DNA of 34,439 nt, from contig JAHIRQ010000154.1 of assembly GCA_018818645.1 (NCBI GenBank), forward strand, positions 1-34,439. Direction: 5' to 3'. A model generated the notes under the pieces. The model did no database searches. It was not told where the DNA came from and saw nothing but the letters and a program-made list of their open reading frames with translations. Of this stretch, positions 16,823 through 29,957 are shown in pieces. Made by a program: the position numbers and the translations under genes. The stretch is from Bacillota bacterium. GTDB taxonomy: Bacteria > Bacillota_I > Bacilli_A > Acholeplasmatales > Acholeplasmataceae. Position 1 is the stretch's first letter; each line of letters opens with the position of its first letter.

Positions 16823-17623
16823 ATGAAATGTATACAATATATTCATGTATCAAAAAGCTATGAGAATGAATTGCTCGATTGGAAGGATTTTATTAGTTAT
16901 GAAAGCGAAGATGTGAAATTAGGAAAGGTAATAGCATTTAAATTGATAGAAGATACAGAAAAATATAATCATTTAATCAAGTATTTAAACATAAATAAGA
17001 TTGAGTATCTTATATTTAGAAAAGATTATAAATTTAACAAGAAGGATATTGAGAACGCTCAAATTTACTATTTGCATTTATATAAAAGCATTGAGCAATA
17101 CTTTGATCACTTTACTGAACGAGAATCATGCATGAAATGTCATAAGAAAATCAACACATTAACAAAAAAAGTCTATTTAGATAAGAAGATAATAACTAAG
17201 TTTGATATTTTTACGCATTATTTTGGTTATGAGGAAATTATTGTATCAGAAAAATTGAAGAATATATTTGAAAAAGAAAAAGTTGCTGGAGCATCATTTG
17301 AACCCTTCCTTGGTGAGAATGAGGGATATTATCATTTGAAATTAGAAGAAACTAAAATGGATTTAACAGAACAGTCCTTTTCAGTGAAAGATGGATATTG
17401 TGAAGTTTGTAAAAGATATGATACTCTGTTAATTTATCCATTATTCTATTTCAATAAAAGTCTTTATGATAACTTAGATATTTTTTACACTAAAGAATGG
17501 TTTGGTGACGAAAAAAAAACACAAGGAAAATCAATAATCATAAGTAAAAAACTTTATATGATACTTAAACAAAATAGTATAAGTAATGCTGAATGGAGTG
17601 TTCATCCTGCTTTTCTTATTTAG
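16823..17623 (+). CDS. Putative cognate immunity protein with two CxxC pairs
   Basis: 4 nt after the toxin module; CMKC and CEVC pairs plus IIVSEKLKNIFEKEKVAGASFEPF, reminiscent of double-CxxCG/SitI-like immunity proteins. Confidence 0.5.
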   Translation: MKCIQYIHVSKSYENELLDWKDFISYESEDVKLGKVIAFKLIEDTEKYNHLIKYLNINKIEYLIFRKDYKFNKKDIENAQIYYLHLYKSIEQYFDHFTERESCMKCHKKINTLTKKVYLDKKIITKFDIFTHYFGYEEIIVSEKLKNIFEKEKVAGASFEPFLGENEGYYHLKLEETKMDLTEQSFSVKDGYCEVCKRYDTLLIYPLFYFNKSLYDNLDIFYTKEWFGDEKKTQGKSIIISKKLYMILKQNSISNAEWSVHPAFLI

Positions 17624-17697: not shown

Positions 17698-17915
17698 TAT
17701 GTTTCCGACCTACACGAAACAATATATTTTCAAGCAATTGCAGTAACTCAAGCAGCATGTTTTAGACAACATATCTAGTGAAATATGTTTCCACATTGAA
17801 AAAAGCCTAGTGTGACAAAACATATTTTGGCCTAAAATATGTTACATGCCTACATTTTACAGCATAAATTCAAGCAATGGGAGTAACTCCACGCAGATTG
17901 AATGTAGCAACATAA
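17698..17915 (+). repeat. Two degenerate repeats of the toxin-junction segment found at 16231-16302
   Basis: YVSDLHETIYFQAIAVTQAACF (17698-17766) and YVTCLHFTA*IQAMGVTPRRLNVAT (17838-17912), cf. YVSGIYESTYFRAIRYTPHTAWW. Confidence 0.65.
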
Positions 17916-17962: not shown

Positions 17963-18173
17963 CTTTGATAAGGCAAGATTAAATCAATAATAAACCAGTT
18001 ATTAAGTATCTTGAGTATGACTAGGTAAAAATTAGAGCGATTAAAGACATACACTTTTTACGAACACTTTTTCTTGTATATTTTCATGTTCAAAGTATAT
18101 CCTTTTTCGTGTATAATAAAAACTAGGAATGCAATTAAAAATTTAATCACAAATGAAGAAGAACGAGGTCAGT

Positions 18174-20345
18174 ATGAAAAAAATCGTTTTAGGAATCCTA
18201 GTATTTCTAGTTTTATTTGTTGCAAGCGTTGGTATTCAATTTGGAATCAATATGGGAATTGATCCACTACCGAGCAGACCAGTAGAATCCATAAATTCAG
18301 GCGGTGGAGATCGCCTTCTTTACTATTACTATCTAGATGAGATTGGAGAACCTCTTCCTGAAGGAATAGTTCTCACTGAAGAATTTGTAAATAGTGAACT
18401 TGAAGGAACATTTGAATATGTCAATGGAAGATATGACGTATCTGACTTTAGAGTCAATGCGTTAGTTCGTCTATATCTAAGTTATAAAGATGTACTTCCT
18501 TTGAGTGCTAAAGAAGATATTAAAGAAGTACTTCTTGATTTTAAATATTGGATGGACCAAGGTGGAGAGGATTCGATGTGTTTCTGGTCAGAAAACCATC
18601 AAATTCTATTTGCTGTTGAAGAGTATTTGGTCGGTCAAGAATTTCCAGATGAAGTTTTTTCAGTAGACGGGAAATCCGGAGCAGTACATATGATTATGGC
18701 TACTGCTAGAATTGAAGCCTGGATGTCTCAACGCTTCACCTACGGGTTTACTGAATGGTATTCAAATAACTATTACCCAGAAGATATATCTCCAATGGCA
18801 AACTTTATCCAATTTTCTAATGACACAGAAATGGTGAATCGTATGAAGATGATTATGGATCTTCTATGGTTCGATATGGCTTCTCAAAGCTTTAAATATG
18901 AAGGACTTGATCCAAGTGGTGCACCAAGAACCTATTATATCTTTAACCCAAGTAGTGGTAGAGCTTATTCTGATAATAGAATGAGCGATGATACAGGAAA
19001 TCGTATGCGTAATTTCATCGATTATGTCATGCAACCTGATGAAACTAAAGATTTTGAAAATAGTTGGGCTACATCTGCTAATGGATTCTTTAATTGCTTT
19101 AGACAAATGATGGAAGCCTTAAATATTGATAACGAACCTTACTACACAGTCCCTGAAGTCATTAAAGAAATATTTAATGACGATTCAGAAGAAAAGATTC
19201 TTAAATCTAGCCAATCCTTAAATGTTGAAGAACTTGAAGGTGAAGGTTTACTGGGTTTAGAAGATCATCAAATCATGATGCAATGGAATATGGAAGCCTT
19301 TAGTAATCCTGAAGTCGTTGATAATACAATCAAGTACATGTCAAAGCATAACATGTTTACCAATGAATTTTTAAATGACTTTAAGTTAGTGAATTTATGG
19401 CCCCTTAGAGCTTTCAATTTACTAGGTATGGTTTCAACAACACTTCAACCATCAACAAATGGGGTAGCAATTGAAAGAGCGAATGTTTATACCTATAAAA
19501 CAGATCATTACTCAATGCATACTGCACAGGCTTACCAACCAGGAGAATATGCAGATCAACACGCTGTATCTTCGATTAACTTAAGTAATCAGGTTTCAGT
19601 GTTTTCAACACAACCTGCAAAAATATCTAGAAGAAGTGGAACACCAACCTATTGGACAGGAAATGGTAGACAACCTTATAGTGTTCAAGAAAAAAACGTA
19701 AATATCTCGATCTATCTTCCACCTACAAAAACTGGATTTATGGAACCAATGATTGTTAAAGATACTACACATATATTCTTTCCTTATGAACTATTTGATG
19801 AAGTAGATGAATCTTATATTGACCAAGGATTCATATTTGGAAGAGTAGGTCAGGCGATGATTGCTATTTCTTCAAGACATCCATTAGCATGGGTTCCATT
19901 TGAAACGAGTAATCAAGAAGGAAACCGTGATGATATGTTGGCTAGAGGTAGTGTTAAGGATGTTTTAACTGAGAAATATGATTTAGTTCAAACAGGATCA
20001 GGAGATCACTACTTCGTCACCGAACTTTCATCATTAGAGAATGAAACATGGAGTGCTTTCATAACAAGATTTATGGATAATGATCTTTCTTATGATACAA
20101 ACACTCATCAACTAACGTACATAACCAAGTTAAATGGTAATTCCTCATTAACAACAATGATTGCTACATTTGACCAAAGCTTTACTATAAATGGATCTTT
20201 ACAAGATTTAGAATATAAGAGATTTGATAATCCCTATGTAGTATCAGGTGGTATAGAAAGAAAACCAGAAGTTATTCTATTTAGCTTCAATGGGCATACA
20301 CTATCTCTTGATTATATAAATAATACAAGAACTATAGGAAACTAA
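18174..20345 (+). CDS. Membrane-anchored or secreted uncharacterised enzyme, presumed alpha/alpha-toroid plus beta-domain
   Basis: N-terminal TM/signal (MKKIVLGILVFLVLFVASVGIQFGI); FKYWMDQGGEDSMCFWSENHQILF and YGFTEWYSNNYYPEDISP blocks shared with 22554..24395. Start corrected to 18174. Confidence 0.65.
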   Translation: MKKIVLGILVFLVLFVASVGIQFGINMGIDPLPSRPVESINSGGGDRLLYYYYLDEIGEPLPEGIVLTEEFVNSELEGTFEYVNGRYDVSDFRVNALVRLYLSYKDVLPLSAKEDIKEVLLDFKYWMDQGGEDSMCFWSENHQILFAVEEYLVGQEFPDEVFSVDGKSGAVHMIMATARIEAWMSQRFTYGFTEWYSNNYYPEDISPMANFIQFSNDTEMVNRMKMIMDLLWFDMASQSFKYEGLDPSGAPRTYYIFNPSSGRAYSDNRMSDDTGNRMRNFIDYVMQPDETKDFENSWATSANGFFNCFRQMMEALNIDNEPYYTVPEVIKEIFNDDSEEKILKSSQSLNVEELEGEGLLGLEDHQIMMQWNMEAFSNPEVVDNTIKYMSKHNMFTNEFLNDFKLVNLWPLRAFNLLGMVSTTLQPSTNGVAIERANVYTYKTDHYSMHTAQAYQPGEYADQHAVSSINLSNQVSVFSTQPAKISRRSGTPTYWTGNGRQPYSVQEKNVNISIYLPPTKTGFMEPMIVKDTTHIFFPYELFDEVDESYIDQGFIFGRVGQAMIAISSRHPLAWVPFETSNQEGNRDDMLARGSVKDVLTEKYDLVQTGSGDHYFVTELSSLENETWSAFITRFMDNDLSYDTNTHQLTYITKLNGNSSLTTMIATFDQSFTINGSLQDLEYKRFDNPYVVSGGIERKPEVILFSFNGHTLSLDYINNTRTIGN

Positions 20346-20346
20346 T

Positions 20347-21093
20347 ATGAAAATAGGAGTACAAACGTATACCATTAGAAAGTTGGCTAAAAAGAATTTA
20401 GGCTTCGCATTGGATGAATTGCTCAGAGTTGGAGTCAATAAAGTTGAATTAGCACGTCTGGATTTAAATGATGAACTCAGTTTATTATTATCAAAGAAAA
20501 AAATAGAAGTGTTATCGATTCAAATGACAGCGAATAAGTTACTTAAAGATGTTGAGCAAATATCATCATTTGCAAAACAAGTTCATTGTAACTTAGTGAT
20601 TGTTTCAAGATTATCTATCCCTGCAATTCTTGGAGGCAAAAGTAGTTTACTCAAATTTTCGAAAAAGCTAAATCAATTAGTAGATCTATATCATCAAAAG
20701 GGAATTCAAGTTGCATTCCATCATCATGATTTCGAGTTCAAAAAGATCGGAAATGAAACTAAGCTTGAAATACTACTTAAGAATACTTTAGATGAATTAA
20801 GGATTGTTTCAGATACATTTTGGTCTAAAAAATCAGGCTATGAGCCACATGAAGTTATTGAAATGATAGGAAAAAGACTGATAGGTATTCATTTAAGAGA
20901 TTATATGATTCAAGAAAATGGTCGATCAATGGACACTGAAGTAGGGTCAGGATTGATTGATTTCAATCAAGTGATGCTCGTATCAAATGATGCATCCTAC
21001 GCAGTGATTGAACAAAATACGAAACATGAAATAGAAAGCATTGAGAGAAGTTTTAATTATTTAAAATCAAACTATAAGGAGTATTTTCGATGA
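20347..21093 (+). CDS. Sugar phosphate isomerase/epimerase (xylose isomerase-like TIM barrel)
   Basis: MKIGVQTYTIRK, VAFHHHDFEF, GIHLRDY motifs. Confidence 0.8.
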   Translation: MKIGVQTYTIRKLAKKNLGFALDELLRVGVNKVELARLDLNDELSLLLSKKKIEVLSIQMTANKLLKDVEQISSFAKQVHCNLVIVSRLSIPAILGGKSSLLKFSKKLNQLVDLYHQKGIQVAFHHHDFEFKKIGNETKLEILLKNTLDELRIVSDTFWSKKSGYEPHEVIEMIGKRLIGIHLRDYMIQENGRSMDTEVGSGLIDFNQVMLVSNDASYAVIEQNTKHEIESIERSFNYLKSNYKEYFR

Positions 21094-22544
21094 GCACAAA
21101 AATGTATGATGTAGATCAAACTCAAATGAAGACAAAGGAAAAATTAATATTTGCATGGGGTGACGTATTTGGTGGTGGTGCACAAGCAATGATTGGTGTG
21201 CTTTATCTAATCTTCTTGACTGACGTGATTGGACTCAATCCAGCAATCGCAGCCACTGCAATACTAATATCGAAAATTTGGGACGCAATTAGCGACCCAA
21301 TCATGGGTGTTGTTAGTGATAATACAAGAACGAAAATGGGTAGAAGAAGACCATTCATTATGGCAGGTGGTTTTCTAGTTATTATCGCCTTCGCTTTAAT
21401 GTGGTTACCTATTGGTGGTTGGGAGTCTGATACTGCGAAGGTAGTATTTGCTATCTCTACGTTCTTATTCTATAGTACGATATCTACAATTATTGCTGTT
21501 CCCTATAGCTCATTATCAGCTGAAATAACAACCAATGTGAAGGAAAGAAATCAAGTGAATGTAATTCGGTTAGTTGTCTCTACACTAGCTTCAGCTGTTT
21601 GTACTTTAGTTCCTTCAATGATTCTAGAAATATTTAAAGCTGGAACTATTGGAATTAATACATTCTATTTAGTGACTGGTATTGGCTTTGGTTTATTCTT
21701 TGCTCTACCTCTAATCTTGATTGGACTATTCACCAAAGAGCGTGTTGAGCTTCCAATAGAAAAGTCAGTATTTGAAGTCAAATCATTTGTTAAACCTCTG
21801 AAGGTCAAAGCATTTAGAGGCTTAGTTTATATGTATCTATGTCAAAGTATATCGATGGATATTTTATCTGCAGGTATTATTTATTATTCGTTATATGTAG
21901 TTCCAGGAAGTGCTACAGTTTTCTTAGGAACATTCATCGGTGTGCAGCTCCTCATGTTTCCTATCATCAGTAAACTCGTTAATACAGTGGACAAGAAGAA
22001 GATTTATTATTTTGGATTGCCTGTCGCTATAATTGGATTTATTGGAGTTGGATTATATCCTTCTGATTGGTCAGTGATTGGTGCATATGCATTAACTGCG
22101 GTTACTGCATTTGGATTTGCTGGAGCGCAGCTGATGAGTTGGATCATATTCCCTGATGCAGTGGATGCAGGCGAATTGAAGCTTAAGGAAAGACCTACAG
22201 GAAGCTTCTCAGGTATTATGACCTTTATTAGAAAGACAAGCTCTGCGATTGCGATTCAAATATTTGGGTTAATGTTATTTATTTCTGGTTATGTAAAACC
22301 AACAGAAACAAATTTAGTTCCAACACAACCAGATAATGCACTATTAGGAATTAGAATCGCGATGTCTCTATCTTTTGTGATCTTAATGACGATTGGTTAT
22401 TTCGCTGCGAAAAAATTTGTATTAACCAATCATAGAAGTTTACAGGTTAGAAAGTTCTTGAAGCTAAGAGAAGAAACAGGATTAGAGAACTTAAGTGAAG
22501 AAGATCAAGTGGAGTTAAGAGAATTAGAATCTGTTATATTTTAG
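21090..22544 (+). CDS. GPH-family glycoside/uronide:cation symporter (MFS)
   Basis: WDAISDPIMGVVSDNTRTKMGRRRPFIMAGG signature; multiple TM segments. Confidence 0.88.
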   Translation: MSTKMYDVDQTQMKTKEKLIFAWGDVFGGGAQAMIGVLYLIFLTDVIGLNPAIAATAILISKIWDAISDPIMGVVSDNTRTKMGRRRPFIMAGGFLVIIAFALMWLPIGGWESDTAKVVFAISTFLFYSTISTIIAVPYSSLSAEITTNVKERNQVNVIRLVVSTLASAVCTLVPSMILEIFKAGTIGINTFYLVTGIGFGLFFALPLILIGLFTKERVELPIEKSVFEVKSFVKPLKVKAFRGLVYMYLCQSISMDILSAGIIYYSLYVVPGSATVFLGTFIGVQLLMFPIISKLVNTVDKKKIYYFGLPVAIIGFIGVGLYPSDWSVIGAYALTAVTAFGFAGAQLMSWIIFPDAVDAGELKLKERPTGSFSGIMTFIRKTSSAIAIQIFGLMLFISGYVKPTETNLVPTQPDNALLGIRIAMSLSFVILMTIGYFAAKKFVLTNHRSLQVRKFLKLREETGLENLSEEDQVELRELESVIF

Positions 22545-22553
22545 GAGGTCATC

Positions 22554-24395
22554 ATGGCTGTAAAAGAAGATGTTGGAATGCTCATTAAAATGAATGTCAA
22601 ATGCTTTAAGGATATTAAAAAGCTTGATGAAGGATTGACAATCGATGAGTCACAAATATTCGAACTCACTCAATTTGTGAATAACAGATATGACTGTGCG
22701 GACTTTAGACTAATCTCTTTAATCAAAACATATCTAGCATATAAAGATTTATTATCTAGCAAAGCAGTAGAGGCTATAGAGGATGCTATGCTTAACTTCA
22801 AATACTGGATGGATGAGCCTGGAAGTGATGGGATGTGTTTTTGGTCTGAAAATCATCAACTACTCTTTCATACCTGTGAATATTTTGCTGGGGATTTGTT
22901 TCCTGAACAAACATTTTCTAATGACGGACATATCGGACTTTATCATCATCTAAAAGCTAAACCTAAAATATTAGACTGGCTTGAAAACAGATTTAAATAT
23001 GGATTTACTGAATGGCATTCCAATACGTATTATGAAGAGGATATCGCTCCACTTTGCGTTTTAGTGGATCACGCTAAAGATATAGAGATTGTGAATAAAG
23101 CAAAAATAATATTAGATATTATCTTTCTAGATTTCGCGATGCATAGCTTCAATGGTTATTTTGTAGCGAGTAGTGGAAGATGCTATGAGGAACAAAAGAA
23201 GAATCCAGAAAAGGCTGACGTCAATGATATACTTGCCCATGCATTTGGAATTCAAAAAAGAGAATATGATTATGAAAGAATTTCTGCATTATTTATTCTA
23301 TGTAAAAACTATCAGGTTCCAAAAATCATTATCGATATCGCGAAAAATACGGATAAGCAAGTGATTAAAGACTCAATGGGCTTGAATTTAAGTGAAATTA
23401 CGCATGAATTCAAGGACAATGACATCAACAAGAAAGGGATGTTTCTTTGGTCCATGGAGGCATTTACCAATACTCGGTCTATCAATATGACCATGAATAT
23501 TTACAACGCATGGAACCTAAAAGAGAATAATTTCTTAAAAGACCTAGAGTCAGTCAATATTTCTATCCTAAGAAAGCCTGGATTACTTCCTTTGGTCGTC
23601 AAATTGCTCAATCCAGCAACTCAAGGAGTAGCAATTGAAAGAGCGAACACCTATACATATAAAACAAGTAATTATATGCTATCTACAGCACAAAAATATC
23701 ACCCCAAAAAATTTGGGGATCAACAGCATATTTGGCAAGCAACTCTAGATGAAAATATATCCATTTTTTCGACCCATCCAGGGTCTCCTATGTTTGATGA
23801 TGCAGCAAGAAACTTCTCTCCATCATTTTGGGTTGGAAATGGAATCAATCCACATGCAGTCCAACATGAGAATAAAGTCTTCTTAATGTATGATTTAACG
23901 CCAAGAAAAGGCTATTTAGAGCGAAAAAGACAAGAGCTAGTTCATTTCTATTTTCCCATTGAGAGATTCGATGAGGTTATCGAAAAAGATTCGATTATAC
24001 TTGCTAAAAAGAGACAAAATTATATCGCAATTATCGCATCAAAAAAACACAAAAAAATGGAAAACTCTGAAATTATTTATGAAGGAAAGAAGAGTCAATT
24101 CATCGTCATTTTAGGTAGTGAAATAGAAGACGTTTCCTTTGAGAAATTTAGTGATTATATTCTATCAATGAAAACTACTTTTTCCAGTCAAAAAATAACC
24201 ATGAAATCAGATCATTTATATGAGCTTAATATGCTAGGTGATTTCAAAATAGATGGCAATAGAATAAACACAGAGTACTCTAGGTATGAAACACCTTATG
24301 TGAATGCGAAAAGAAAGCCTGAAGAGCTACTTATTTCATATAAGAATAAGAAGTTATATTTAAATTTTTATCAAATGATTAGGGAGGAAAAGTAA
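22554..24395 (+). CDS. Cytosolic paralogue of the 18174..20345 enzyme
   Basis: FKYWMDEPGSDGMCFWSENHQLLF, YGFTEWHSNTYYEEDIAP, GVAIERANTYTYKTSNY; no signal peptide. Confidence 0.65.
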   Translation: MAVKEDVGMLIKMNVKCFKDIKKLDEGLTIDESQIFELTQFVNNRYDCADFRLISLIKTYLAYKDLLSSKAVEAIEDAMLNFKYWMDEPGSDGMCFWSENHQLLFHTCEYFAGDLFPEQTFSNDGHIGLYHHLKAKPKILDWLENRFKYGFTEWHSNTYYEEDIAPLCVLVDHAKDIEIVNKAKIILDIIFLDFAMHSFNGYFVASSGRCYEEQKKNPEKADVNDILAHAFGIQKREYDYERISALFILCKNYQVPKIIIDIAKNTDKQVIKDSMGLNLSEITHEFKDNDINKKGMFLWSMEAFTNTRSINMTMNIYNAWNLKENNFLKDLESVNISILRKPGLLPLVVKLLNPATQGVAIERANTYTYKTSNYMLSTAQKYHPKKFGDQQHIWQATLDENISIFSTHPGSPMFDDAARNFSPSFWVGNGINPHAVQHENKVFLMYDLTPRKGYLERKRQELVHFYFPIERFDEVIEKDSIILAKKRQNYIAIIASKKHKKMENSEIIYEGKKSQFIVILGSEIEDVSFEKFSDYILSMKTTFSSQKITMKSDHLYELNMLGDFKIDGNRINTEYSRYETPYVNAKRKPEELLISYKNKKLYLNFYQMIREEK

Positions 24396-25468
24396 TGAAC
24401 GATAAAAGCTATTTTACTAAGGTTATAGATCTTGCAGATTATATCGCTCAAACATGGAATCCTAAAATGAAGTGGATGTGGGGAGAAGCTTTATTTGGAT
24501 ATTCACTAACACTACTTGATGAGCATTTAAAGAGTGATAGATATACAAAGTTTTTAACTGACTATTGTGACTACTATGTCTCTAACCCTCCAAGAGTTGA
24601 TCAAAGTGATACTTCAGCACCTGCTTTGATCACTTATCAGATGTATAAAAAAACAGGGAATGAAGATTATAAAAAATTAACAGACAGAGTTTTATACTAT
24701 ATCAAAAATGAACCCAGATTAATTGAAGATTCAGTCAATCATCTAGGCAATAGCTTAGAGGGGAAGTTTTATCCAAAGTCTATTTGGGTGGATAGCTTAA
24801 TGATGTTTTCTGTATTTCCTTCGCATTATGCTAAGGATAATAATGATCAAGACATGATGGATATAGCAAGTCGTCAGCCAAGAGTAATGTCTAAATATAT
24901 GCAGGACCCAGATCATAAATTATGGTATCACTGTTACTGGACGAAGGCAAAAACACATTACCCGAGAAGAAAAATATTTTGGGGTAGAGGTAACGGTTGG
25001 GTGATTGCATCCCTTCCAATGATATTAGAAAATATTGGTGAGCACGCAGAAAAAGAAAATATTATAAAGAAATTTAAAGAAACATCTGAAGCATTACTTC
25101 CATATCAAAGAAGTGATGGAGCGTTTGAAACAGTATTCAATAAAGTAGGAAAGACTTATCGAGAACTATCTTTTACAGCTCTAGTTGCTAGAGGTTTCCT
25201 ACAAGGATATCGTATGGGGCTACTTGACGATAAGTTCCTTGAAGCTGGAATCAAAGCATACAAGGCAGTAGTCGATGCACTCATCTATGAAGACGGTGGA
25301 ATCTTTATGCCAGAGATTAGTGGTCCTACCATTCCTCTCCCACTATTTCCTTATCTAGGATATAAGTTTATACCAAAAGCTAGAAACTGGTCCTTTGGAC
25401 TAGCAGCACTCATATTTGCAGCAATCGAGTTTGATCGAATAGAAAAAAATAAGGCAGAACTCATTTGA
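24395..25468 (+). CDS. GH88/GH105 unsaturated glucuronyl/rhamnogalacturonyl hydrolase
   Basis: WMWGEALFGYSL, SIWVDSLMMFSVF, FWGRGNGWV hallmark motifs. Confidence 0.85.
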   Translation: MNDKSYFTKVIDLADYIAQTWNPKMKWMWGEALFGYSLTLLDEHLKSDRYTKFLTDYCDYYVSNPPRVDQSDTSAPALITYQMYKKTGNEDYKKLTDRVLYYIKNEPRLIEDSVNHLGNSLEGKFYPKSIWVDSLMMFSVFPSHYAKDNNDQDMMDIASRQPRVMSKYMQDPDHKLWYHCYWTKAKTHYPRRKIFWGRGNGWVIASLPMILENIGEHAEKENIIKKFKETSEALLPYQRSDGAFETVFNKVGKTYRELSFTALVARGFLQGYRMGLLDDKFLEAGIKAYKAVVDALIYEDGGIFMPEISGPTIPLPLFPYLGYKFIPKARNWSFGLAALIFAAIEFDRIEKNKAELI

Positions 25469-25722: not shown

Positions 25723-25916
25723 ATGAACAAGAACCCGAGTATTCCAAAGATAATGAGATAGTAAAAATTCAATCTCATTGTCTTTTTTATTGTAAAAATA
25801 ACTTCTTTAGGTATTTTAATCTTTGTATATTTCTTAACAATCATTAATACAATCCATAAAACATTTAAGAGTGCCCAAAATATGGATAACCCAATGCATA
25901 CATAAGCTATAATCAT
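25719..25916 (-). CDS. Small membrane protein (65 aa) of the kinase operon
   Basis: Two hydrophobic segments; 4-nt overlap with kinase stop. Confidence 0.55.
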   Translation of the reverse strand: MIIAYVCIGLSIFWALLNVLWIVLMIVKKYTKIKIPKEVIFTIKKTMRLNFYYLIIFGILGFLFI

Positions 25917-28507
25917 GCGGCACCTCCAAATATGAGTCTATAAAGTCTTATGAAAAAGTCTATCGCATTTTGAAAGAATCTAATAATCGCATCTAATCTG
26001 ATAAACTCTTTTACTGTTTCTAGTTTTTCAGTAAAATTGATTTGAGCGAGTAATGCTTCAAGCTGATTGATACCTACAGTGTTTAATACATAAATCATCA
26101 TGATAATTAAACTAGATAGTATTAAATGATTTAAGATCTTGTTCGTGAAAAGAAGAATGTGCACTGCACCTTTTTTATTCTCTAAAATAAATTGTCTCAT
26201 TTTTGCGTGATCTTTTGTATCACCTGTCGCACAAATAGGACAATTGGTTATACTTTGATGGTAATAATGGTATTCAGATGTTAAGCATTTTTTACTCTCA
26301 AATGATAACTTAGAAAGCACACTATGCCATTCACTAGGTGAAGTTCTAACAATCTTCGTTGGGTTTGATACAATCAAAGCCTTTTTCATCGCTCTTTGAT
26401 AGTAATTCGGGAAAAGTTCAATGAGTTTTGTTTTCTCATCGATATCAACTCCAGGAACTGTTTCTTTATGGAGATAGTAGTTCTGTTCAACAAAGAAGGA
26501 TAGTGGTTTGCTAGCGAGTTTATGAGTACCCTTGAATGGATGCGCATCATGGAGAATCATATGGATAATGACAGCGAGATAGTACCTGATGGTTTGTTTA
26601 CTCTTTGGTTCGAAAGTATATTCCATCGGAGTTACAGGAACAACCTCTTTTTGTTTAACCTCTTTTTGCAAAACTTGATTTGATTTCTCGAATTCAAAGC
26701 CTTCAACAGTTGTTGATGACTTAAGGTCAATGACTTTCTCTTCCTTTTCAACCTTTTCTTTTGTCTTAGGTTCTAAGGGGGATCTGATAAGTTCTAAATC
26801 CTTCTTTCTGATTTCCTCCAAACGTTTTCTTTCAATCTCACGTTCTTTTTCCTTAGCTTCTTCAAGTGTTTTCAAGTATTTTTTATAGTTTTGTTCATAG
26901 AAGTATTCCTGTGGAAGATAGTCCTCTCTTTGGAATGCCATTGCTTTGGTTGTATCATCGGTGGCTCCTAGGAAAACAAAGTCAGGAATAAAAGGATTCA
27001 AATCCTTATCTATAAAGATCTGATTAAATTCAATAGGAATGTTATGTTTCTCGAGAGTAGAAAACATCGATGCGATATTTTTAGCAACGTTAATTTTTAC
27101 TTTATCAGTAATCTTTAGTTTTCCAAGTCGATTATTCTTTAAAAATGTTTGAAGTCGATAAAGATTTGGCATCCGTTTACTCACATAACCAATCACCTTA
27201 TCATGCTTCATGATGAGTTCTTGAGGTGGAGCGAAATATGCTGGCATTTTTTGATATATCTTTTCATTTCGAAGGGCTTCAATACGTGTTCCCAATTGAT
27301 ATTTATCAAGCATCTTCGGATTAAAAAAGACAGCGAGTCGTTTACTACCCTTTAAGGTATAGCTCTTGCTAGCAAGTGTTTCATCATAAACATGGTTTTC
27401 ATCAACAATTATTTCTTTATCATCGGTGTCGTATTTAACATATTTTCTAGAAATAGTTTTAAAGTAATCGAGTAGATAATCATAATCCTTTGTCTGTTCT
27501 CTTGCACAAATTGGACATTTTTGAAAATGATTTGGATAGTAGTGTTCTTTATTTTTTCTACATTTTTTTATATTATCCTTAACCACTCTTAAACCAGCAG
27601 CCCATTCATCAGCAGTTGGTCTATTGATAACATCGTTATGCTTTTCAAACGCTCTTGTAAATAAATCCTGAATTTGTTTTGGGAAAAATCCAAAAGGCAT
27701 TGAATTCTTTGGAGGGATAATATTCGAATTTTGTGTACTATATGGGAATATTTCATGCTCCATATTATAGTTGATCGCGTTTCCATCAAATCCCATAACA
27801 CCCTTGATTCTTGCTGAAAATGGATGGACACCCATCATTAAGATTTGAAATATAAGAATCGCTAGGCCATAATTGTCATGGTTTGGTATTCTTTTAACTT
27901 CAACTTTAGATTTCTTTTTCGCTTCAATGACTTCAGGTGGTGTATAGTCTGGTGTAAATACCTTGCAGTGATACAACTTAGATTCTGAGGATACCTGAAA
28001 GGAGTCTGTATCAACAACACCAATTTCAAATCCTGGATAGACAAAGAAGTCACTGGTGTTAATATCACCAATCACCGTATCATTCTTATGAATAAAGCTC
28101 ATGACTTTCGCTAAATTAATTGATATTACAAGTCTGTCATACCATGTGATATTCGGAAATTTGGTTTTCTGAAGTCCTGGGGTAATGACGTGAGATAATT
28201 GATTTTTTGCTTGAACTCTACGCATTAAGTATCCAATGAATTTTCTATTTTCATCATAGATTACATAGCTTGGCCACGCAATAATTGTTAAACCATTATA
28301 ATCTAGAAGACCTGGTTTCTTTTGAACCATCGCTTTAATTTTATCCACAATTTCTGGCATTCTTTCTAAAGCACGGTCAGTATAGACCTTCACTAAAATA
28401 TTAGGATTTTTAGCAAGCTTAAAAACACTACCTTCGCCACCGCTTCCAATAGGTTTTGTATCATCAACTAATATTTTAGAACCGTCTTCTAAATAGTATT
28501 TTTTCAT
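25913..28507 (-). CDS. TerY-P/YegI-like Ser/Thr protein kinase with second degenerate kinase module and C-terminal TM
   Basis: GSGGEGSVFKL P-loop, VKVY Lys, VIGDINTSDFFV catalytic loop, VVDTDSFQV metal-binding; two copies of KKC.....YHYY/EHYY...CPICA zinc-ribbon-like motif. Confidence 0.8.
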   Translation of the reverse strand: MKKYYLEDGSKILVDDTKPIGSGGEGSVFKLAKNPNILVKVYTDRALERMPEIVDKIKAMVQKKPGLLDYNGLTIIAWPSYVIYDENRKFIGYLMRRVQAKNQLSHVITPGLQKTKFPNITWYDRLVISINLAKVMSFIHKNDTVIGDINTSDFFVYPGFEIGVVDTDSFQVSSESKLYHCKVFTPDYTPPEVIEAKKKSKVEVKRIPNHDNYGLAILIFQILMMGVHPFSARIKGVMGFDGNAINYNMEHEIFPYSTQNSNIIPPKNSMPFGFFPKQIQDLFTRAFEKHNDVINRPTADEWAAGLRVVKDNIKKCRKNKEHYYPNHFQKCPICAREQTKDYDYLLDYFKTISRKYVKYDTDDKEIIVDENHVYDETLASKSYTLKGSKRLAVFFNPKMLDKYQLGTRIEALRNEKIYQKMPAYFAPPQELIMKHDKVIGYVSKRMPNLYRLQTFLKNNRLGKLKITDKVKINVAKNIASMFSTLEKHNIPIEFNQIFIDKDLNPFIPDFVFLGATDDTTKAMAFQREDYLPQEYFYEQNYKKYLKTLEEAKEKEREIERKRLEEIRKKDLELIRSPLEPKTKEKVEKEEKVIDLKSSTTVEGFEFEKSNQVLQKEVKQKEVVPVTPMEYTFEPKSKQTIRYYLAVIIHMILHDAHPFKGTHKLASKPLSFFVEQNYYLHKETVPGVDIDEKTKLIELFPNYYQRAMKKALIVSNPTKIVRTSPSEWHSVLSKLSFESKKCLTSEYHYYHQSITNCPICATGDTKDHAKMRQFILENKKGAVHILLFTNKILNHLILSSLIIMMIYVLNTVGINQLEALLAQINFTEKLETVKEFIRLDAIIRFFQNAIDFFIRLYRLIFGGAA

Positions 28508-29256
28508 TCATCTCTCACTTCAATAAATAATAATGTTTTATCATCGTCTGTCTTCTTATTAATTCTTTCCGATGCTAAAAAGCGCTCTAATGATTTTTGG
28601 ACTTCCTCTTGATTATAGTTTTCATGAGAAAAGACCTTAAAGAATGGATCATAAAATAAGTGACTGACTGTTTTATCCTTCGCTGAGATACTAATTGACT
28701 CAATACCATCACTCATTAAGGATACCATTGGATAAAACTTGTCACATTTTTCATAAATTCCATTCTCAATACTCTCTAAATTACAAATTGAGAATGTCGC
28801 GTTCGCGTATTCTCCTCTTTGTTGTTTCGCAATGACTTCATAGGAATCTCCAATCTTGCCAATTGCTGCACAATCACCTACCTGACCATAAAACTGGCGA
28901 TCGTGAAAGCTAACAAAAACAAGAAGAGTCGCATTTAAATCTTTGATATTGACTTCGTTTTGATTGGCGACGTCATGCAATTGATCATTGGTTTCAATAA
29001 AGCCTTCCTTAATCAAAGTGATGATTTCTTCATCTGTCATTTTGACATCAAGGTATTTTTCTAAAAAGTCAACGATAAAAGTAGAAGCGGTTAAACTTCC
29101 TAATTCTGCATGAGACGCACTGCCCATACCATCACTAACGCATGCAATAAAACCTAACCCATTTGGTAATATTTTATAAGCGTGATTGTCATGACATGGT
29201 GTTTCTGTAGATAAATGCGAGGTGCCAACAACAGATGCACCATATAGTCTAACCAA
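28504..29256 (-). CDS. PP2C-family protein phosphatase (TerY-P triad)
   Basis: CHDNHAY, VSDGMGSASHAE, GQVGDC, MSDGIES, DDDKTLL motifs; 4-nt overlap with kinase. Confidence 0.85.
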   Translation of the reverse strand: MVRLYGASVVGTSHLSTETPCHDNHAYKILPNGLGFIACVSDGMGSASHAELGSLTASTFIVDFLEKYLDVKMTDEEIITLIKEGFIETNDQLHDVANQNEVNIKDLNATLLVFVSFHDRQFYGQVGDCAAIGKIGDSYEVIAKQQRGEYANATFSICNLESIENGIYEKCDKFYPMVSLMSDGIESISISAKDKTVSHLFYDPFFKVFSHENYNQEEVQKSLERFLASERINKKTDDDKTLLFIEVRDE

Positions 29257-29258
29257 GA

Positions 29259-29957
29259 TTAGACCTCAAATTCAAAGACATCATCACTTGGTTTTTCAAG
29301 CTTTAATGTATCTCCTACACGACTTGAAGAAACTGAGGATAATGATGAGGATACCCATTGGAAGAGTTCCTTGAAGTTTAGACCATTGAGTTTGAAAACA
29401 CGGTCTCCAGATCCTGATATTTGACGTAATCTTTCGATATTTGCGTTTTCAACACCAATACCAAAGAAAATAACTTTCTTGCTAGAAATAGCACTTTGTA
29501 GCATACCACTTGCTTCACTGACGTTATCTGTTGGTTCACCATCAGTAATGACAAATAGCCATGGTCTATAATAAGAAATACCAGCATTTCTATATTCTTG
29601 TTTTCTGCTTTCAATATTTCTAAGTGCTGTTACAATCGCTTCACCCATTGGAGTCATCCCATTGACCTTTAGTTCAGGAGCTTGAGACTCAGAGACTGTT
29701 GCGAAATTTTGTACAACAGATACACTTTGACCAAATGTAATCACCGATAAATCAACTCGAACACTTGCTAGATCATCATCACGCAGTGCAGCATATAGTG
29801 CATGAACACCTTCATTGAGTTGGTTGATTGGATTACCAGACATGGAGTAAGAAGTATCAAGTAATAAAACGACTGGGCATCGTGGTTCTGGATTATCCAG
29901 AAGGGCTTCATCAACGACTTCCTTTTCAAATTCAAAATCATTTCTTAAATCACTCAT
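29259..29957 (-). CDS. VWA-domain protein, TerY-like
   Basis: MIDAS DTSYSMSG, GMTPMGEAI, VITDGEPTD. Confidence 0.88.
   Translation of the reverse strand: MSDLRNDFEFEKEVVDEALLDNPEPRCPVVLLLDTSYSMSGNPINQLNEGVHALYAALRDDDLASVRVDLSVITFGQSVSVVQNFATVSESQAPELKVNGMTPMGEAIVTALRNIESRKQEYRNAGISYYRPWLFVITDGEPTDNVSEASGMLQSAISSKKVIFFGIGVENANIERLRQISGSGDRVFKLNGLNFKELFQWVSSSLSSVSSSRVGDTLKLEKPSDDVFEFEV

Follow-up and report, generated by a model that had tools for sequence, protein, structure and literature searches.

Several described enzyme groups resemble parts of the locus analysed here. In enzymes of the polysaccharide lyase (PL) families PL33 and PL35, an Asn and a Tyr stand 53-54 residues apart and a His lies further on (PMC11848413, PMC12088678). 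In O-glycoside beta-eliminase (OGE), His132, Asp163, His189 and Glu233 are metal ligands and His134 is catalytic (PMC10628242). The locus encodes two homologous proteins, P1 and P2, which resemble PL12, PL15, PL17, PL21, PL33, PL35 and PL39 in their predicted helical plus sandwich architecture, their best Foldseek matches, and the Asn and Tyr motifs in the helical domain. They differ from these families in that they have no PF07940 or PDB sequence match, their sandwich-domain His is not invariant, and their superposition is poor. We consider it probable that P1 and P2 are beta-eliminating uronate lyases, built of a helical domain and an antiparallel beta-sandwich, of a family that is matched in no library searched, P1 acting outside the cell and P2 on imported fragments.

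The window, that is the whole stretch of 34,439 nucleotides that was analysed, comes from a Bacillota bacterium, a free-living relative of the mycoplasmas. Five of its genes follow one another in the order P1, TIM barrel, GPH symporter, P2 and GH88/105; neighbours in this series overlap or are separated by no more than about 10 bp. The features of this operon are as follows:

18089..18117, plus strand: promoter-like site (TTCAAA, 17 nt, TATAAT) upstream of P1; a consensus match only, in a region where the count of such sites is not above that in shuffles
18174..20345, plus strand: P1, membrane-anchored member of the lyase-like family, 723 aa (reading frame, homology, model)
18585..18599, plus strand: P1 W138-S-E-N-H142, with N141 as proposed carboxylate neutraliser (motif invariant in 52/52)
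18771..18773, plus strand: P1 Y200, proposed catalytic Tyr (invariant in 52/52)
20347..21093, plus strand: TIM-barrel gene (PF01261), OGE-like, 248 aa (Pfam, 33.2 against a cut-off of 31.1 bits)
21090..22544, plus strand: GPH-type MFS symporter, 484 aa (PF13347, 217 bits)
22554..24395, plus strand: P2, cytosolic member of the family of P1, 613 aa (reading frame, homology, model)
22842..22856, plus strand: P2 W97-S-E-N-H101, with N100 as proposed neutraliser (motif invariant in 52/52)
23028..23030, plus strand: P2 Y159, proposed catalytic Tyr (invariant in 52/52)
23727..23729, plus strand: P2 H392, candidate sandwich-domain His (His in 47/52)
24395..25468, plus strand: GH88/GH105 gene, YteR-like, 357 aa (PF07470, 177 against a cut-off of 26.6 bits)

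An alternative in-frame ATG for P1 lies at 18153. The preliminary description had placed two homologous reading frames here, bracketing a TIM-barrel isomerase and a GPH symporter, with GH105 as the last gene. Both frames are present and homologous (BLASTP E=3e-111, 32% identity over 665 aligned columns), and all three sequence blocks listed as shared, FKYWMD..G.D.MCFWSENHQ.LF, RF.YGFTEW.SN.YY.EDI.P and GVAIERAN.YTYKT, are present and aligned. The bracketing and the terminal position of GH105 are likewise borne out by Pfam; the word isomerase is not, the TIM barrel being OGE-like. The symporter also scores 213.7 bits with TIGR00792, slightly below the cut-off of 231. The match of the last gene to PF07470 is full-length, and its best PDB matches are YteR-type GH105 unsaturated rhamnogalacturonyl hydrolases, although its sequence similarity to the solved members is low. 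The same five-gene order is kept in relatives, namely at L009, L010, L011, L017, L018 (Peloplasma aerotolerans) and L037.

The surroundings of the operon show a few further features. Upstream of it there is an inverted repeat, ACATATTTT-GGCCT-AAAATATGT (window positions 17820-17842), and a protein at 16823-17623, just upstream, matches the Imm11 immunity domain (31.5 against a cut-off of 22.1 bits). On the minus strand, genes for a PP2C phosphatase, a VWA-domain protein and a protein with weak likeness to protein kinases are clustered at 25913-29957; L009 and L011 have related genes for all three after the operon, and L017 has two of them.

P1 and P2 have no meaningful match in Pfam or NCBIfam, nor by phmmer among PDB sequences, in agreement with the initial statement that no characterised CAZy family could be recognised, and a profile of 52 family sequences found no match among PDB sequences. 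CPV_Polyhedrin and similar weak matches all fell under the cut-off. Nevertheless, the family is widespread: 236 loci, found via two peptide patterns, were confirmed in genome contigs, together with 199 plasmid records, and they come from many phyla. Many of the source genomes are MAGs, and the list of phyla may be inflated by contamination. The plasmid records are mostly rhizobial, and three are from Haladaptatus. In the genus of the window the family is present in 12 of 20 genomes; other genera of the same GTDB family have none (0/68). At most family loci a single copy is seen, and a pair like that of the window is not typical. Members from Caldilineaceae (L071-L084) and rhizobia (L005-L007) have an additional N-terminal region of 330-490 residues, which contains a TTNGPADVW.NG-type motif and matches no PDB sequence. 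This region appears to be a genuine additional domain and may be a carbohydrate-binding jelly roll. Some Propionibacteriaceae members also have long N-terminal extensions; these appear to be open-frame artefacts.

The proteins could also be lyases of a family that CAZy already describes but that is absent from the Pfam, NCBIfam and PDB entries within reach of our searches. As CAZy listed 44 PL families in early 2025, fewer than half of them studied in depth (PMC11848413), such a case is conceivable. However, the lack of any sequence match in those three libraries argues against it, as do the records themselves, which where annotated, including on plasmids, usually name the family member "hypothetical protein", and the open-licence literature, in which no description of the family was found. 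We regard this explanation as unlikely.

In the AlphaFold models of both P2 (pLDDT 93.0, pTM 0.94) and P1 (pLDDT 91.6, pTM 0.92), which are confident, an N-terminal helical domain is followed by a large beta-sandwich, an order of secondary structure that agrees with the toroid plus sandwich fold of the PF07940 group. The preliminary description had suggested a Foldseek search for toroid plus beta-sandwich lyases, and the best PDB matches are indeed such lyases or dermatan sulfate (DS) epimerase. For P2, nine matches have E<=1e-3, all of them uronate lyases or DS epimerase 1; for P1, the four matches at this level are all toroid uronate lyases or DS-epimerase, and its first 11 matches all belong to this lyase/epimerase group. 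The superpositions, however, are poor (TM-scores 0.19-0.37 with large rmsd for the matches at E<=1e-3), so the fold relation to the toroid lyases is a remote one. PL8 chondroitinase/hyaluronidase lyases are among the matches (2wda, 1rw9, 1hn0, 7eip and 8fnx), again with poor superposition and no sequence match. DS epimerase 1 (6HZN), the top fold match of P2, is about 9% identical to it and is a biosynthetic enzyme, whereas the P1/P2 family is found in catabolic operons.

Profile-profile comparison by hhalign of the family with three heparinase-like groups, represented by proteins from the genomes of relatives, was not significant (P 0.04-0.5). The best local alignment with one of these groups puts N100 on the conserved Asn and E-W-x-S-x-x-Y on the Tyr motif, which is suggestive only. 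By sequence, P1 and P2 show no Pfam, PDB or significant hhalign match to the PF07940 group (PL12/15/17/21/33/35/39). Given this result and the low TM-scores, we file the family under no PL family. The models nevertheless suggest that it may be remotely related to the group that includes heparinases, chondroitinases, oligo-alginate lyases and DS-epimerase.

The conserved residues give some clues regarding the possible active site. W-S-E-N-H, one Glu, and a Tyr 59 residues past the Asn are invariant in 52 of 52 sequences, and so are E99, E153 and D188 of P2. The Asn and Tyr resemble those of PL33/PL35; their spacing is 59 here against 53-54 there. The sandwich-domain His is found in 47 of the 52 sequences; it stands one residue earlier in P1 and is missing in L022 and L066, and the roles of the residues are therefore only proposed.

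One signal-anchored and one cytosolic copy had been described at the outset, and this split is supported. P1 has a modelled hydrophobic helix at residues 2-27. In close relatives, proteins of the P1 type have an N-terminal 17-residue window with a mean hydropathy near 3, and those of the P2 type have no such window. The split recurs on a quick tree of 75 family sequences. The anchored clade (27 sequences) has the N-terminal helix in every row except one that is truncated at its start by a contig end, and the cytosolic clade (32 sequences) has it in none. The supports are 98 and 84, and the compartment label requires 3 changes on the tree versus about 22 in shuffles. Both clades are of mixed phyla, so the split predates the genus of the window.

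The gene neighbourhoods of relatives connect the family with the degradation of unsaturated uronates. Outside the window-like loci, GH105 homologues make up 13 of 216 genes within two genes of a family gene versus 1 of 448 farther away (p=3.5e-6, a guide only, since the loci are phylogenetically non-independent and the gene calls mechanical). In L046, L057 and L060 the family protein carries a C-terminal GH105 fusion, and in L061 a partial N-terminal one. In L030, a GH105 gene, KduI (114.6 against a cut-off of 23.9 bits), KduD (408.7 against 338.85) and a KdgR-like regulator lie between the two family genes; in L042, KduD, a KDG kinase-like gene and a KDPG aldolase adjoin P2 and GH105; and in Rhizobium sp. 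NLR16a, GH88 and a GH28 polygalacturonase-type gene are downstream of the family gene. At many family loci, including those of Caldilineaceae, no GH105 was found nearby. A scan of large neighbouring genes gave none that pointed to the polymer.

At five loci (L024, L036, L039, L040 and L041), a Gfo/Idh/MocA oxidoreductase gene and a ThuA-like gene are beside the family gene, and there is no GH105 in the stretch examined. A direct identification was made for the oxidoreductase of L040 and for ThuA of L036 and L040; the remaining genes were assigned by sequence clustering. It is as if these loci used a different downstream route.

The preliminary description had named the paralogues as the natural candidates for lyase chemistry, and the helical plus beta-sandwich models, the lyase and epimerase matches in Foldseek, and the GH105 genes adjacent or fused in relatives all favour this assignment. 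One could instead suppose that P1 and P2 are glycoside hydrolases that have a helical toroid fold and rely on invariant Glu and Asp residues, since E99, E153 and D188 are never replaced and Foldseek also matches a GH146 structure, though further down (E 7e-3). Yet every stronger match is a lyase or an epimerase, and the associated GH105 acts on unsaturated ends, so we find such hydrolases quite improbable.

Elsewhere in the genome of the window, a draft assembly that is 98.3% complete with 2.45% contamination, the locus L124 (contig C182) contains genes for an ABC ATPase, a GH28, a KDPG aldolase, a KDG kinase-like protein, a YhcH-family protein, an IclR-type regulator and a TIM barrel. The GH28 is PglA-like, under the equivalog cut-off. 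UxaC is present as well, and together with the KDPG aldolase/KDG kinase-like cluster it indicates that uronate catabolism is encoded. KduI is absent, and nothing scores above the cut-off for KduD; the best KduD-like match below it was judged to be FabG-like, from neighbouring reading frames only. A search for PF07940-type lyases found none in this genome. Our leading guess for the substrate is a pectin-like polymer. Least probable of all is that P1 and P2 are uronyl C5-epimerases conditioning the substrate for another enzyme: human DS epimerase 1 is the top PDB match of P2 (Foldseek E 1.9e-5) and the second of P1, and lyases share fold and catalytic set with it (PMC11848413), but a catabolic context with GH105, KduI and KduD needs a source of unsaturated ends, which no lyase of the PF07940 type, the type searched for, would supply in this genome.

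The TIM-barrel protein has AtOGE, an O-glycoside beta-eliminase, as its closest PDB chain (8BVK, E 2.4e-19). The four metal ligands and the catalytic His134 of OGE are all aligned and identical in it. As judged from its sequence, the protein looks more like an O-glycoside beta-eliminase than an isomerase, and with these five residues kept and AtOGE nearest, "isomerase" is not its best label. No glycoside 3-dehydrogenase partner was found by Pfam among the five operon genes. We also considered the TIM barrel as a replacement for KduI, an idea weakened by L030, which has both a TIM barrel and KduI. Since the window has GH105 as well as the OGE-like protein, one operon may combine two elimination chemistries. 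A wider scenario, possible though rather doubtful, is that the proteins form a new PL family, present across many phyla and also in haloarchaea, in which an early split separated part of the members into anchored and cytosolic clades, and which feeds either GH105 or a ThuA-like plus Gfo/Idh/MocA route suggestive of keto-glycoside chemistry, with two eliminations perhaps combined in the operon of the window.

If P1 and P2 are uronate lyases, the operon could work as follows. P1, which its N-terminal helix would tether to the outside of the membrane, would cut an acidic polysaccharide at uronic acid and leave 4,5-unsaturated ends. Short fragments would be imported by the GPH symporter and cut further by the cytosolic P2; GH105 would remove each unsaturated uronate, which, once freed, would enter central metabolism via 2-keto-3-deoxygluconate. 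In catalysis, the Asn of WSENH may neutralise the carboxylate, and the invariant Tyr and a His may take the C5 proton and protonate the leaving group. The homology, the predicted architecture, the conserved residues, the operon, the fusions and the compartment split on the tree were observed in this analysis; catalysis itself, the roles of residues, the order of steps, the substrate and the endo or exo mode are all inferred here.

If true, the family would be new, but the kind of enzyme would be a known one. Confirmation would give a name, uronate lyases, to hundreds of proteins that are now "hypothetical", and the enzyme class would gain a family in bacteria without a previously recognised lyase. 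It would also point to the breakdown of acidic polysaccharides by free-living mollicutes.
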